A stretch of 64,000 bases of DNA from Leptotrichia sp. oral taxon 498. GTDB taxonomy: Bacteria; Fusobacteriota; Fusobacteriia; Fusobacteriales; Leptotrichiaceae. Where the stretch lies: NCBI RefSeq assembly GCF_002240055.1, contig NZ_CP016753.1, forward strand, positions 186,001 through 250,000. The letters are read 5' to 3'. This document shows positions 9,024 through 14,220 of this stretch, piece by piece (the first letter of the stretch is position 1; every line of letters begins with the position of its first letter). Made by a program: the position numbers and the translations under genes. The notes under the pieces were generated by a model. It was not told where the DNA came from. It saw nothing but the letters and a program-made list of their open reading frames with translations, and did no database searches.

Positions 9024-9052
9024 TCGACTTCCATATATTTTTATTATATAAT
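9024..9052 (+). promoter_or_regulatory. Promoter of leader RNA copy A
   Basis: TCGACT, 17-base spacer, TATAAT. The same arrangement (TTGACT, 17, TACAAT) precedes the second leader copy at 10466, which supports both. Confidence 0.6.
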
Positions 9053-9166
9053 TATGTTGTAAGCAAGGAAACTTACGCTGTATATCTGTGATGTTACTGA
9101 ATGAAAGTTTAAACATTATTTAAGAACATCAGCTACAAAGAGCCACCATTTTTAGTGGTATTTTTT
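9053..9166 (+). ncRNA. Structured leader RNA with attenuator-like terminator, copy A
   Basis: A transcript of about 110 bases precedes the decayed DUF3800 gene. It shares with the leader at 10495 a conserved core (CTGTATATCTGTG and ACTGAATGAAAGTTTAA) and a 3' hairpin with CCAC/GTGG arms and a U run just before the ribosome site. Pairings visible here: GTAAG with CTTAC, and TGATGTT (from 9088) with AACATCA (to ~9131). Candidate RNA motifs found upstream of DUF3800 genes have been named DUF3800-n in comparative surveys. Whether this is one of them needs a covariance-model search. Confidence 0.6.
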
Positions 9167-9180
9167 GAAAGGATTTTTTT

Positions 9181-9773
9181 ATGGAGATATTTGTCTATTC
9201 GGATGAATCTGGAGTTTTTGATGTTAAACATAATAAATATTATGTTTATAGCGAAGTAATTTTTTTGAATAAAAATAATAAAGATGTGAAAAACAAAAAA
9301 TATAAAATTATTAATGCAACAAAAAAGTTATAAAATTTGGCGTTATAATAAACCAAAAAGAAATACATCCAAAAATTTTTGAGAATAAAAAAAATAAGCA
9401 GTGATACCTAAATTATGCTTACAAAATTGGAAATAAAAATTATTTAAAAAAACTGATAGCCGAGAAAAAATAATAGAAGAAAAAGTAGAAAATGTTTATA
9501 TTTTCTTCGACGAATATTCAGCGACAACAAATAAAAAATATGAATTTTAAAGAAGGATTAATACAAGAATTTAAAAGCGAAACTTTTAATTCAAACTATG
9601 AAGTATACATAAAACCTATTTTTAAAAACTTAAAATATTTAGAAGTAAAATATTGCAATTCCGAAAAAACACCCATGATAAGACTAGCCGACATTACATC
9701 CAATTATTTATATAGCGGTGTTTTAAACAACAAACCTATACAAGATACAATTTATTTAAAAATGTTACCTTAA
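9181..9773 (+). pseudogene. DUF3800 protein, degraded
   Basis: It starts after AAAGGATTTTTTT with MEIFVYSDESGVFDVKHNKY; the early Asp-Glu-Ser-Gly is the DUF3800 hallmark (an RNase H-like fold is proposed for the family). The frame breaks near 9330 and again before 9492. The rest is recovered in other frames: VENVYIFFDE, KEGLIQEFKSETFNSNYEVY and the C-terminal TPMIRLADITSNYLYSGV, where RLAD is the second conserved acidic site. Several frameshifts and an internal loss make it non-functional. It lies just outside the left repeat of the mobile element. Confidence 0.75.
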
Positions 9774-9910
9774 ATAAAAAAATACATAGAAAGCTATATT
9801 TTTTATGAATTAAAATAAATATTTCAAAAATTTTGTGATTTAATAATCGATTTTTGAGAATATTCATAATTTTATATAAATATACACACATATTATCAGT
9901 AATAAAAAGA

Positions 9911-9955
9911 TATGTTACCCATATGGCAACATATCTAAAAAGGAGTTATGAAGAA
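9911..9955. repeat. Left direct repeat of the integrated element (attL candidate)
   Basis: 45 bp matching 21238-21282 at 38 positions; the last 20 bases (taaaaaggagttatgaagaa) are identical. The first half forms a hairpin that would terminate minus-strand transcription. Tandem AGTCCAA motifs lie just inside this repeat, and another pair lies just inside the right one, as expected for attachment sites of a tyrosine integrase. There is no gene between 9774 and 10179. Confidence 0.75.
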
Positions 9956-10007
9956 TCAACATCCTTTTTAAAGAAAACCTAGTAAAACAAGGACTGAATT
10001 TTAAAAA

Positions 10008-10027
10008 TAGTCCAATGTTAGTCCAAC
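10008..10027. repeat. Integrase arm-type site, left end
   Basis: Two AGTCCAA motifs 11 bases apart. The same pair with the same spacing lies at 21091-21109, just inside the other end of the element. This is consistent with arm-binding sites for the N-terminal domain of the integrase. Confidence 0.6.
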
Positions 10028-10146
10028 AAGAAATTGTTAGAATAAAAATCTCTAATTTTATAAAAAAATTCAACATTATCTGTAAATTTTAAAAATGGAA
10101 AATCCAACTAGAAACAATATTAAATTTAGTTATTGTATTATTTTTT

Positions 10147-10178
10147 CTCACTATGCTAATTTAGATAGTGAGTTTTTT
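10147..10178 (+). terminator. Strong intrinsic terminator
   Basis: CTCACTAT, ten-base loop, ATAGTGAG, then six T. It ends two bases before repeat copy 1. No clear gene precedes it, so it may end a small RNA or an eroded gene. Confidence 0.75.
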
Positions 10179-10179
10179 C

Positions 10180-10272
10180 TTGTAAGAGCCGATTTAAGAG
10201 CTTATTTTTGTTATTCAAGGGAAAATATCAAAAATAAGTTTAAATGCTCTCTACGGGGCTTATACAGAGTTA
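10180..10272 (+). repeat. 93-bp structured repeat, copy 1
   Basis: About 94% identical to 17393-17484. CTTATTTTTG (10201-10210) pairs with CAAAAATAAG (10229-10238), extended by AGAGC with GCTCT. A second small stem CTCT/AGAG encloses ACGGGGCTTATAC. Differences between the copies keep the pairing (A to G opposite T in both stems), which suggests an RNA or a folded DNA site. The reading frame that crosses both copies starts inside unrelated flanking sequence and is not a gene. Confidence 0.6.
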
Positions 10273-10465
10273 TCCGAGATTGTATTTTTGACATAGTCTG
10301 TGAGATAAAGGCACAGTATTTTGCAAAGCTATCCCTATAAGTATGGCACTATTTTCTTGATTCTAATTAGTGTGGCTTTGAAATACAAATAATTTTTTTT
10401 GAGAAAATTAGCAACCATTAATTTAATTTGTATAAATTGTTGTAAAAATTATGAAATTAAAAATC

Positions 10466-10494
10466 TTGACTTCTATATTTTTTTATTATACAAT
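10466..10494 (+). promoter_or_regulatory. Promoter of leader RNA copy B
   Basis: TTGACT, 17-base spacer, TACAAT, directly before the conserved leader. It matches the layout at 9024. Confidence 0.7.
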
Positions 10495-10601
10495 TATATT
10501 GCAGATAGGAGATTAGACTGTATATCTGTGTAACTGAATGAAAGTTTAAGTGTTATGTAAGAATACCAGCCACAGAGCCACTATTATAGTGGTATTTTTT
10601 T
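10495..10601 (+). ncRNA. Structured leader RNA with attenuator-like terminator, copy B
   Basis: It carries the same core as the leader at 9053 (CTGTATATCTGTG, AACTGAATGAAAGTTTAA) and a perfect 3' terminator CCACTA-TTA-TAGTGG followed by a U run (10578-10601). CAGAT pairs with ATCTG near the 5' end, and CTGTG with CACAG brackets the core. The terminator lies before the ribosome site of the next ORF, as in an attenuator or riboswitch, or as in an RNA antitoxin followed by partial read-through. Here the downstream genes are a small ORF and a GNAT enzyme, not DUF3800. Confidence 0.65.
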
Positions 10602-10620
10602 AATAAAAGGAGTGATTTTT

Positions 10621-10806
10621 ATGGCTACAATAAGTTTTTTTAGAACACCAGAATTTAAGACAGATAAAGAAATTGATGGTTTAATAAAAGCCTTAGAGAA
10701 TGATAGAAAGCCTAATTTAACAGATGTAAAAATAAGAACAATTACTGATGAAAAGGAAATAAAGGAATTATTGGGGTTAAATGATGGAAAAGATAACGTT
10801 GAGTGA
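10621..10806 (+). CDS. Small hypothetical protein, possible antitoxin partner of the GNAT
   Basis: 61 residues, starting MATISFFRTPEFKTDKEIDG after AAAAGGAGTGATTTTT, which fits the ATG at 10621 rather than the GTG at 10612. Its 3' end overlaps the GNAT start by 26 bases in another frame, so the two are translationally coupled. No DNA-binding motif is obvious. A small gene ahead of a GNAT enzyme resembles acetyltransferase toxin-antitoxin pairs, but the role is inferred from arrangement only. Confidence 0.7.
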   Translation: MATISFFRTPEFKTDKEIDGLIKALENDRKPNLTDVKIRTITDEKEIKELLGLNDGKDNVE

Positions 10807-11359
10807 ATTGTTGAAATATGATACAGAAGAAAATATAAAAAATAAATTTTTAAATAATTTTAAAAGTTTAGAAAACAATGATATAGAAAAATTTTTACAT
10901 AACCGAGCAATTGAATTTGAGAAAAAATCTGTTTCAACAACTCATTTAGTATTTAACAATAAAAAATTAGTTGGTTATTTATCGTTGTCAAATAAAAGTT
11001 TAATTTTATCCAAAGAACGATTTGAAAAATTAAGTAATAGCCGAAAGAAAAAATTAATGCAAAGTGGACAAATACTTGAAAATGGACATTTAGCTGTAAA
11101 TAGTTACTTAATTGGACAATTAGGAAAGAACTATAATTTAGCAAAAGAAGAACAAATAAAAGGAAAAGACTTGCTCTCATTTGGATTCAATTTATTGCTG
11201 GAAGTAAAAAAAATAATGACGGCACGTTATGTTTGGCTAGAATGTGAAAATTCTGAAAAACTTATAAATTTTTATAGAACGTTTGGATTTGAAAAAGTAG
11301 ATGATTTTATTTCTGAAGATGGATTTGTTGTTATGATAATGAAGTTGGATGAAAAATAA
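10781..11359 (+). CDS. GNAT family N-acetyltransferase (possible TA toxin)
   Basis: About 190 residues, starting at tandem ATGs (10781 or 10784). The C-terminal half carries the GNAT signature: KIMTARYVWLECENSEKLIN then FYRTFGFEKVDDFI. The mid segment LAVNSYLIGQLGKNYNLAKE fits the acetyl-CoA binding strand region. Relatives in mobile elements often act on aminoacyl-tRNA or other small cellular targets, but no target is evident here. It follows the small ORF and leader RNA copy B. Overlapping translation and the attenuator suggest its dose is kept low. Confidence 0.75.
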   Translation: MMEKITLSELLKYDTEENIKNKFLNNFKSLENNDIEKFLHNRAIEFEKKSVSTTHLVFNNKKLVGYLSLSNKSLILSKERFEKLSNSRKKKLMQSGQILENGHLAVNSYLIGQLGKNYNLAKEEQIKGKDLLSFGFNLLLEVKKIMTARYVWLECENSEKLINFYRTFGFEKVDDFISEDGFVVMIMKLDEK

Positions 11360-11420: not shown

Positions 11421-11699
11421 ATGCCAACGGTTAGTACAAGTATAAAAATAGATGCCAAAACAAAGAAAGAAGCACAAGAATTATTTAAAGATATGGGAAT
11501 GAGTTTAACTGCAGCAATAAATATATTCTTGAAACAGGCAGTAAGAGAGCAGAGAATACCTTTTTATGTTGGAGAGCCAAAATATAAGGAAGAAGTTTAT
11601 CAAGCTATGAAAGATGTAGAACAAGGTAAGAATTTGAGCAAGTCTTATCATAGTGCTAGAGAAATGATAGAGGATATTTTGAAAGATGAAGATGAATAA
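11421..11699 (+). CDS. RelB/DinJ family antitoxin
   Basis: 92 residues. The N-terminal ribbon-helix-helix (VSTSIKIDAKTKKEAQELFK, then GMSLTAAINIFLKQAV) dimerises, binds the operator and represses the pair. The C-terminal part (EVYQAMKDVEQGKNLSKSYH) would wrap the toxin. It overlaps the next gene by 14 bases. Ribosome site AAAGGTGTG ahead of the ATG. Confidence 0.85.
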   Translation: MPTVSTSIKIDAKTKKEAQELFKDMGMSLTAAINIFLKQAVREQRIPFYVGEPKYKEEVYQAMKDVEQGKNLSKSYHSAREMIEDILKDEDE

Positions 11700-11970
11700 G
11701 TATAATTTAAAATATACAAATAGGTTTTCTAAAGATTTAAAATTAATAAAAAAACGTGGGTATAATCTAAAATTACTTGAAAAAGTAGTTGAAATATTGA
11801 TTAATCGTGAAAAATTGTCTGTAAAAAATAAAGATTATGCTTTAAAAAATAAATATTTAGGGTATCGTGAGTGCTGTATAACATCTGATTGGTTGTTAGT
11901 ATATAAAATAAAAGGTGAGGAATTAATATTACTAACAACGAAAACAAAAACTCCGAGCAGTTTATTTTAA
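11686..11970 (+). CDS. YafQ/RelE-family toxin homologue lacking catalytic histidines
   Basis: 94 residues of the type II toxin mRNA interferase fold, partner of the upstream RHH antitoxin. It aligns to YafQ over the whole length: KDHPLQGSWKGYRDAHVEPDW in E. coli corresponds to KDYALKNKYLGYRECCITSDW here, and TGTHAALF to TKTPSSLF. The Asp-Trp pair is kept. The histidines equivalent to YafQ H50, H63 and H87 are Tyr, Cys and Pro. It may be inactive, or use another chemistry. The start may be 11686 or the in-frame ATG at 11692. Confidence 0.8.
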   Translation: MKMNKYNLKYTNRFSKDLKLIKKRGYNLKLLEKVVEILINREKLSVKNKDYALKNKYLGYRECCITSDWLLVYKIKGEELILLTTKTKTPSSLF

Positions 11971-11982
11971 TAAAAAATTTGG

Positions 11983-12017
11983 AATCACAGTTTTTAATTT
12001 AGCTGTGATTTTTTTTT
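11983..12017 (+). terminator. Terminator of the RelB/YafQ-like pair
   Basis: AATCACAG, 12-base loop, CTGTGATT, then a T run, 13 bases after the toxin stop. Confidence 0.85.
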
Positions 12018-12256: not shown

Positions 12257-12583
12257 TTATTTAAATTTTTCTTTAAAAAAGGCATTTTGAATCTTATTGA
12301 ATAACTCTTCTTTTTCCTTAAAATCTATATTTTCATTATTAAAGAACGATATAATAGATGATTCTAAATTACTGGAATCTTTATTTATACCGTATAATAT
12401 GTATTCAGGTGAAACACTATATAAATTAGATAACTTAATTAAACTCTCACTATTTATTTTCCTCTCATTATTCTCATATCGTGAAATAGCTCCAGCAGAT
12501 GATTTTATTTTTCTAGCCACTTCTTCCAAAGAAAATTTGTACTTTTCTCTCAAACTTTTTAATCTTTTTCCTACATTTTCCAT
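12257..12583 (-). CDS. XRE-family transcriptional regulator
   Basis: 108 residues. The N-terminal helix-turn-helix (LKSLREKYKFSLEEVARKIK, then SAGAISRYENNERKINSESL) is a standard Cro/C1 domain. The C-terminal ~40 residues (SIISFFNNENIDFKEKEELF) may dimerise. It is divergent from AbiE. The palindrome ATTGATATTTTATCAAT overlaps the -35 of its own promoter, so autorepression is likely. The same palindrome recurs upstream of the Cro-like gene at 14385. Confidence 0.85.
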   Translation of the reverse strand: MENVGKRLKSLREKYKFSLEEVARKIKSSAGAISRYENNERKINSESLIKLSNLYSVSPEYILYGINKDSSNLESSIISFFNNENIDFKEKEELFNKIQNAFFKEKFK

Positions 12584-12760: not shown

Positions 12761-12790
12761 TAAAGTGTAATAGTAAAGGTAGTGATAATT

Positions 12791-13390
12791 ATGTTAAAAA
12801 TTACAAATGACAAATTAAATAATTTTTTTGAAAATAATACTATAATAACAGTTAAAGAAGCAGAAAAAATCGGTATAAAAAGACAGATTCTTTCTAATTT
12901 ATGTAAAAAAGGAATTTTAGAAAGAGTAAAGCAAGGAGTTTATCAGAAAAATGATACAATTACAGATGAATTTGTAAAAATACAAAAAAATAATAATGTG
13001 ATTTTTTCAAACACAACTGCTCTATACTTTCATAATTTAGCAGATAGAGTGCCAAATACAATTTCAATAACAGTTCCACAAGGTTATAATGTTTTGCATA
13101 TTACAAAAAAATTTGAAAATTTGAAGATTCATTATGTGAAAAAAGAAATATTTGAAAGTGGAAAAATTGAAACTTTGAGTAAAATGGGTGCTAAAATTTA
13201 TATTTATGATAAAGAGAGAACGATATGTGATATTATAAAAAATAAAGAAAAAATTGATGTGGATGTATTTTCAAAGGCATTAAAATTATTTTTTAAAAAT
13301 AAGGATATAAAAGTAAGAAAATTGATAAAATATAGTAAAGAATTAAAAATTGAGAAAAAAGTAAGAGAATATTTGGAGGTTTTGATATGA
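12791..13390 (+). CDS. abiEi: AbiEi-type antitoxin (winged helix)
   Basis: 199 residues. The N-terminal winged helix (ITVKEAEKIGIKRQILSNLC, then KGILERVKQGVYQK) and the following ALYFHNLADRVPNTISITVP are typical of AbiEi antitoxins of type IV toxin-antitoxin / abortive infection systems, which repress their own promoter. The ATG at 12791 follows AAAGGTAGTGATAATT; the upstream GTG at 12782 overlaps that site. It overlaps abiEii by four bases (ATGA). Confidence 0.87.
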   Translation: MLKITNDKLNNFFENNTIITVKEAEKIGIKRQILSNLCKKGILERVKQGVYQKNDTITDEFVKIQKNNNVIFSNTTALYFHNLADRVPNTISITVPQGYNVLHITKKFENLKIHYVKKEIFESGKIETLSKMGAKIYIYDKERTICDIIKNKEKIDVDVFSKALKLFFKNKDIKVRKLIKYSKELKIEKKVREYLEVLI

Positions 13391-14220
13391 CATCAGAAAA
13401 GTTAAAAGGGAAAATAAAAAGTTTTTCAGAAAAAAATAATTTGAAAGCACAGGAAGTACTACAAATGTATTTTTTTGAAAGATTTTTAGCTCGATTAGAA
13501 AAATCAAGATATAGAGTAAATTTTATAATAAAAGGTGGATTTTTAATTTCATCAATTATTGGTATACAAAATAGAACAACGATGGATATTGATACGACAA
13601 TAAAGGGACTTCCAGTAAAAGAGGAAATTATTAAAGAAATAATATTGGAAATTTTAAATATCGAAGTAAATGATGGAATAGAATTTGTATTGGGAAAAAT
13701 AGAAAATATAAGAGAAATATCGGAATATGAAAATTATAGATTACATTTGATGGCAAATTTTGAAAAAATAAAAAATCCACTAAAGATTGATATTACAACA
13801 GGAGATGTAATAATTCCATCAGAAATAGAATATTCATACGAAACAATATTTAAAGAAAAGCTGAATATTTTGGTTTATTCATTGGAAACATTGATTGCTG
13901 AAAAGTATGAAACTATAATAAAACGAAATATTACAACAACGAGATTGAGAGATTTTTATGATATTTATATGATTTTTAAATTGAAAAATGATAAAATAAA
14001 TGTAAATAACTTGAAACAAGCAATTTGGGAAACGGCAAAAAATAGAAATTCAACGGAAGAAATATTAGAAAGCAAGGAAATTTTAGAAGATATTAAAAAT
14101 GATGAATATTTGAATAAACAATGGAATATTTATAAAAAAGAAAATAAATATGTTGATAATATACAATTTTCTGAAATTTTGAAATTACTAAATAAAATAG
14201 CAGATATTGTACAAGAATAG
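13387..14220 (+). CDS. abiEii: AbiEii-type nucleotidyltransferase toxin
   Basis: 277 residues of the AbiEii/AbiGii nucleotidyltransferase family; the best-studied relatives add nucleotides to tRNA acceptor ends and stop translation. Visible motifs: IIKGGFLISSIIG (GG motif) at ~48, RTTMDIDTTIKG (paired Asp) at ~64, the later PLKIDITTGDVI strand with Asp, and ETLIAEKYETIIKRNITTTR, a conserved Lys/Arg segment. Coupled by ATGA overlap to abiEi, it forms a phage-defence module carried by the element. Confidence 0.87.
   Translation: MTSEKLKGKIKSFSEKNNLKAQEVLQMYFFERFLARLEKSRYRVNFIIKGGFLISSIIGIQNRTTMDIDTTIKGLPVKEEIIKEIILEILNIEVNDGIEFVLGKIENIREISEYENYRLHLMANFEKIKNPLKIDITTGDVIIPSEIEYSYETIFKEKLNILVYSLETLIAEKYETIIKRNITTTRLRDFYDIYMIFKLKNDKINVNNLKQAIWETAKNRNSTEEILESKEILEDIKNDEYLNKQWNIYKKENKYVDNIQFSEILKLLNKIADIVQE

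Follow-up and report, generated by a model that had tools for sequence, protein, structure and literature searches.

Both leader-like RNAs in the window, the 64 000 nt stretch of the Leptotrichia sp. oral taxon 498 genome analysed here, belong to the DUF3800-I family (RF02969), an RNA family already catalogued but here placed in a new genomic context. Comparisons among relatives, plasmids and phages show that a DUF3800 gene is the regular partner of this RNA, on either side of it depending on the clade of the protein, and the sequences point to a structured small RNA gene of about 110 nt with its own promoter and intrinsic terminator. The reading favoured here, with a probability of roughly 60 %, is that of an antitoxin-like small RNA/nuclease pair, of which the second RNA in the window has been orphaned, the GNAT operon behind it having been acquired by replacement. 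An attenuator reading is secondary.

The first-pass annotation had described two related attenuator-like leaders sharing a promoter layout, a conserved core and a terminator placed before the ribosome site. Their relatedness is far beyond chance: in a cmscan over the whole window both copies exceed the RF02969 gathering score of 44.2 bits and align end to end with the covariance model, in agreement with the suggested link to DUF3800-type motifs. In Rfam this family has the type 'Gene; sRNA'; the original paper on the DUF3800 motifs is reportedly that of Weinberg in 2017. The promoter and core blocks of the two copies are 82–84 % identical, and the similarity extends well beyond promoter and terminator. 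Each sigma70-like promoter ends where its RNA begins, and each RNA is closed by an intrinsic terminator, likewise found by pattern scan for both copies. Because promoter-like sites in the region are no commoner than in shuffled sequence (13 against 14.0), the promoter calls rest on this constant placement, which is seen throughout the family; terminator-like sites are above chance (4 against 0.4 in shuffles). The DUF3800 neighbour usual in RF02969 is a pseudogene at copy 1, and at copy 2 a GNAT operon stands in its place. Unlike typical members, copy 2 and several relatives are without DUF3800 and precede GNAT, PDC-S33 or RelB genes, and copy 1 is degenerate.

Table 1. Features of the two RNA loci in the window and of the exchange locus around copy 2
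Feature	Position	Strand	Evidence
Promoter of RNA copy 1, TCGACT-17-TATAAT	9024..9052	+	Pattern scan, 10/12 matches
DUF3800-I RNA copy 1, degenerate	9052..9169	+	RF02969, 49.3 bits, E 1.7e-4
Intrinsic terminator of RNA copy 1	9142..9159	+	Pattern scan
DUF3800 pseudogene (90-nt deletion, frameshifts, stops)	9181..9774	+	550/589 aligned bases as in the intact G009 gene
Conserved left flank of exchange locus	10329..10442	+	In 8/13 Leptotrichia genomes
Promoter of RNA copy 2, TTGACT-17-TACAAT	10466..10494	+	Pattern scan
DUF3800-I RNA copy 2, intact	10494..10603	+	RF02969, 89.6 bits, E 1e-12
RNA copy 2, P1	10500-10522		
RNA copy 2, P2/P3/P4	10525-10576		
RNA copy 2, terminator	10577-10593		
Small ORF, 61 aa, presumed GNAT antitoxin	10621..10806	+	Small ORF right before GNAT at 20/20 listed homologous loci
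GNAT protein, 192 aa, predicted tRNA-acetylating-toxin-like	10781..11359	+	PF13673, 23.5 bits, just under cut-off
RelB-like antitoxin	11421..11699	+	PF04221
YafQ-like toxin	11686..11970	+	PF15738, E 2.2e-24
Hairpin/terminator-like sequence, right border of exchanged block	11983..12017	+	Cargo comparison among relatives
XRE-type regulator, common right flank	12257..12583	-	HTH_3, E 1.6e-13

It had also been proposed that stems can form in both copies, which is only partly borne out. Copy 2 keeps 31 of the 34 Rfam pairs, and its predicted fold contains P1, a two-part P2 enclosing P4, and the terminator hairpin. In copy 1, eight of the 34 pairs are non-standard (26 kept), against two or three in Leptotrichia relatives; stems P1, P2 and P4 are damaged and are lost from the predicted minimum-energy fold, and in the RNA tree its branch length is 0.175, compared with 0.044 in intact sisters. 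This tree gives no resolution on whether the Leptotrichia RNAs without DUF3800 form one clade. Tandem repeats are absent from both copies, each being a single non-repetitive structured unit. The P3 hairpin has a GNRA tetraloop in every Leptotrichiaceae copy (GAAA, GAGA, GCAA, GUAA, GUGA), and elsewhere in the upstream-type clade, where the RNA precedes the DUF3800 gene, the loops are mostly UNAC-like (UAAC, UCAC, UGAC); UNAC loops resemble GNRA loops.

The earlier proposal had been made to depend on covariation in homologues, and covariation was found. In an alignment of 17 distinct RNAs, 87 % of cells are paired, against 29–42 % with the partners slid, and two-sided changes occur at 13 pairs, where shuffles have a mean of 6.7 and none of 500 reaches 13, figures that are biased towards the structure to which the alignment was fitted. 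RNAalifold's own prediction from the same alignment likewise includes P4 and the terminator stem with two-sided changes.

Behind copy 1 lies, as first described, a decayed DUF3800 gene, with 93 % nucleotide identity to the intact gene of G009. Its fragments at 9181-9330 and 9492-9770 have PF12686 matches below the Pfam cut-off, and no intact DUF3800 gene was found in the genome of the window. Compared with its G009 counterpart, RNA copy 1 differs at 24 of 135 sites (18 %), mostly by G>A and C>T changes, and the pseudogene at 39 of 589 (7 %; Fisher P 1.3e-4). On these sequences, drift alone does not obviously explain the faster divergence of the RNA than of the pseudogene.

Elsewhere in the Leptotrichiaceae, DUF3800 is found downstream of the RNA in G001, G009, G082, G091, G092 and prophage L027. 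Five of the six DUF3800 genes in the family adjoin the RNA, the sixth being of a longer, 464-aa kind. No partner gene is present behind the RNA in G094, where it lies beside tRNA-Asn, or in G095, where DUF3800 has been lost a few codons after its start. Among 389 relatives reaching beyond the family, under strict filters and sparse sampling, RF02969 was found only in Leptotrichiaceae. Blastn of the RNA against plasmids and phages gave no match, and proteins and covariance models were used instead. The RNA is present at nine of ten plasmid and phage DUF3800 genes, three times upstream and six times downstream (one below gathering). At the tenth, a Mesomycoplasma DUF3800 gene (L090), there is no recognisable RF02969; this gene may possibly have a different or diverged RNA.

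On viral contigs, no DUF3800 gene was found by single-sequence search and 69 were found by alignment-based search. RF02969 adjoins 35 of the 39 such loci scanned, 20 upstream and 15 downstream, always on the same strand; of the remaining four, one is on a contig that is cut off too early, and the other three encode distant proteins (23 % identity). The side follows the similarity of the protein to the Leptotrichia query, being upstream at identities of at least about 40 % and downstream at about 35 % or below. It thus tracks the protein clade, and a single relocation could account for this. Promoter matches at the RNA start average 9.7/12 for upstream RNAs and 9.5/12 for downstream RNAs, over a background of 6.6-6.8; in upstream-type loci there are usually about 10-17 nt from the RNA end to the start codon. 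With a promoter of its own also when downstream, the RNA cannot have an obligatory role as 5′ attenuator as its main one on this evidence; a separate small RNA gene is indicated, and the earlier view of it as in essence an attenuator leader is not supported. Several DUF3800 genes adjoin prophage lysis or integrase genes, or sit in a satellite phage, like cargo genes. In Streptococcus phages Javan73 and Javan110 (L094, L095 2119-3181), a Cro/CI regulator overlaps the DUF3800 start and the RNA follows DUF3800.

The RNA is often without DUF3800, as in 8 of 14 Fusobacteriota matches and three prophage cases, which amount to about eight events (the GNAT, PDC-S33, G006, G094 and G095 lineages; prophages L179/L185, L187 and L202). 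The reverse, a DUF3800 gene of the RNA-partnered kind without the RNA, is nearly absent, an asymmetry that would be expected if DUF3800 is harmful without the RNA. Orphan RNAs score like partnered ones (70-94 bits). On the prophage-like contig L187 (3676-4336), an unrelated ORF of 171 aa comes after the RNA.

When DUF3800 and GNAT were compared with the PDB by sequence profile, nothing credible was matched; matches came from fold comparison. The AF2 model of DUF3800, built from a 28-sequence alignment, has a pLDDT of 90.8, and its best PDB matches are RNase HII/H2 structures at a moderate level (E 1e-5 to 1e-3, TM about 0.5). The acidic residues D8, E59, D141 and D201 are invariant. DUF3800 is predicted from this model to be an RNase HII-like nuclease; an RNase H fold had been proposed for it earlier (PMC10910872).

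At the locus of copy 2, it had been suggested that the RNA changes its cargo, and among Leptotrichia relatives the genes behind it do differ: cargo swapping at this exchange locus is real. The left flank adjoins GNAT, DUF3800, PDC-S33 or RelB versions and two RNA-less versions, and the XRE regulator of the right flank is common to G001, G005, G006, G009, G010 and G012. Behind the cargo, the versions of G005, G010, G006 and G012 have a near-identical right-border hairpin, that of G001 being less alike. Between the flanks are RNA-DUF3800 in G001, RNA-GNAT-RelB/YafQ in G000, G005 and G009, RNA-PDC-S33 in G005 and G010, and RNA-RelB in G006, where a separate promoter behind the RNA serves RelB. 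G007 and G012 (L051, L049) have RelB/YafQ with the RNA body absent, and the junction falls in a TTTTTTATTA-like repeat that is present on both sides of the RNA. PDC-S33 is a PADLOC candidate, matched by the RelA/SpoT-domain protein behind the RNA in G005 and G010 (E 2.9e-96). In these versions (L004, L008) the RNA promoter, just upstream of the RNA, holds a palindrome, TTGTTGTA-AAAG-TACAACAA, a possible repressor operator. To the right, an AbiEi/AbiEii pair (window 12782-14220) lies between two HTH genes; it is missing from the shorter G001 version, and this is therefore a second cargo site.

In the window, copy 2 precedes a small ORF and a GNAT gene, as first described. The small ORF has no Pfam or NCBIfam match. 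The AF2 model of the GNAT protein (pLDDT 76) has top PDB matches that include many GNAT toxins (7byy, AtaT, AtaT2, TacT3, GmvT, KacT), and a likeness to toxins that acetylate tRNA is predicted. Relatives of this protein were found in 16 of the family's 33 genomes, and at most of these other loci a sigma70-like promoter of their own lies immediately upstream. In the interval 10494-10621, up to the start of the small ORF, the pattern scan lists no further plus-strand promoter-like site; the GNAT operon therefore probably depends on transcripts that start at the RNA promoter and read through the terminator. A search for the RNA at other GNAT homologue loci found none, and only one near-identical lineage (G000, G005, G009; about 96-97 % identity over the segment), that of the window, has the RNA-GNAT arrangement. 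The link is one event, and no recurrent RNA-GNAT partnership is shown. RNA 2 may or may not act on GNAT as well, its three copies being too similar for a test of selection.

In the favoured reading, the RNA would most likely bind and restrain the DUF3800 nuclease in a type III-like manner, as in AbiF/RCd22 or ToxIN. In the window, the first pair would have decayed in both gene and RNA. Judging by the orthologous versions, the former cargo behind RNA 2, presumably DUF3800 as still in G001, would have given way to a self-contained toxin-antitoxin operon of small ORF and GNAT together with RelB/YafQ, and the GNAT operon, without the promoter that most relatives have, would probably be read from that of the RNA. 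The orphan RNA 2 may be no more than a relic, may serve to neutralise incoming DUF3800, or may simply be a promoter-terminator unit setting low GNAT expression. From this analysis a putative antitoxin role for the DUF3800-I RNA is plausible; however, a protein of RNase HII-like type is not necessarily toxic.

Other relations between RNA and protein have to be weighed. Rather than inhibiting the DUF3800 nuclease, the RNA might serve it as cofactor or guide in a ribonucleoprotein effector. The predicted RNase HII-like fold, the obligate-looking pairing and the strongly conserved core would suit this, as would the TPR-DUF3800 protein that accompanies some Cas12a2 loci (PMC10910872). However, no variable guide segment is apparent, and the RNA repeatedly outlives the protein, which is easier to explain for an antitoxin; a cofactor or guide is considered unlikely. 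It is highly improbable that the RNA works as a type I-like antitoxin by base-pairing with the DUF3800 mRNA. Although the location of a small RNA next to the gene of a putative toxin might suggest this, the RNA is on the gene's own strand rather than antisense, and in a rough test its predicted duplexes with the cognate start region (-31.5 kcal/mol) were no stronger than with non-cognate ones (-31.1 kcal/mol). These energies give no support to antisense pairing at the DUF3800 start.

For RNA 2, the question is what it does before the GNAT operon. It is somewhat unlikely that it is only a relic and a recombination boundary, its position without function. G007 and G012 lack the RNA body, their junction lying between the repeats, which indicates that the RNA is dispensable there, and the GNAT link is confined to one lineage; yet the fold of RNA 2 has been kept, while RNA 1, equally partnerless in this genome, has decayed. 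A mere relic would not need the high scores seen in orphan RNAs, although the GNAT lineage is too recent for a selection test. Distinctly unlikely is a cis-acting transcription attenuator, in which the terminator, perhaps switched by a ligand or protein, controls the following gene and the cargo is exchanged behind it. Such control would fit the place of the terminator, which immediately precedes the ribosome site both in the window and at upstream-type loci, the truly different cargo, and the lack of a listed promoter-like site between RNA 2 and the GNAT operon. RCd22 combines attenuation of its toxin with neutralisation (PMC12373285). Against it, the RNA lies downstream of DUF3800 with its own promoter in 15 viral and six plasmid/phage loci, RelB in its version is served by a separate promoter located behind the RNA, and no antiterminator was identified. 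It is improbable, but would be of consequence, that the RNA freed from DUF3800 is a portable control cassette for unrelated toxins (GNAT, RelA/SpoT-type PDC-S33), through conditional read-through or direct binding; a single structured RNA would then serve chemically different toxins.

Among known systems, RCd22-AbiF of Clostridioides difficile is the closest tested precedent for the antitoxin reading and has the same layout, its own promoter, a structured ncRNA of about 100-130 nt, a terminator and then a prophage-borne toxin gene; RCd22 binds the AbiF protein and thereby neutralises it, both in cis and in trans (PMC12373285). It differs in its Abi_2/AbiD/F-family protein and in the two repeated motifs of RCd22 (PMC12373285), whereas DUF3800-I has a predicted RNase HII-like protein, a putative RNA-protein contact and an RNA that is sometimes downstream. 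Type III systems (ToxIN, CptIN, TenpIN) share the order RNA, terminator, RNase gene with upstream-type DUF3800 loci; DUF3800-I differs from them in having no tandem repeats, no ToxN-like protein and no fixed RNA position. Their single-promoter order holds for upstream-type loci, and in downstream-type loci the RNA follows the gene with its own promoter. Nor is the consistent 5′ leader position expected of a riboswitch or attenuator seen, 15 of the 35 viral-contig RNAs being downstream. The window operon resembles GNAT modules (AtaRT, TacAT, KacAT) in its small upstream ORF and, by predicted structure and gene order, in the GNAT toxin fold match and the adjacent small gene at every listed locus; it differs in that its 192-aa GNAT protein is only 12-20 % identical to those toxins and its small ORF has no match in Pfam or NCBIfam.

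No function has been assigned to DUF3800-associated RNAs in the literature examined. With these results the family becomes a testable proposal, an RNase HII-like protein with a mobile, self-contained small RNA on either side of it that often outlives the protein. The orphan RNAs and the exchange locus are natural experiments, in which RNA antitoxins may have been kept as anti-addiction elements or recruited by new toxin operons.
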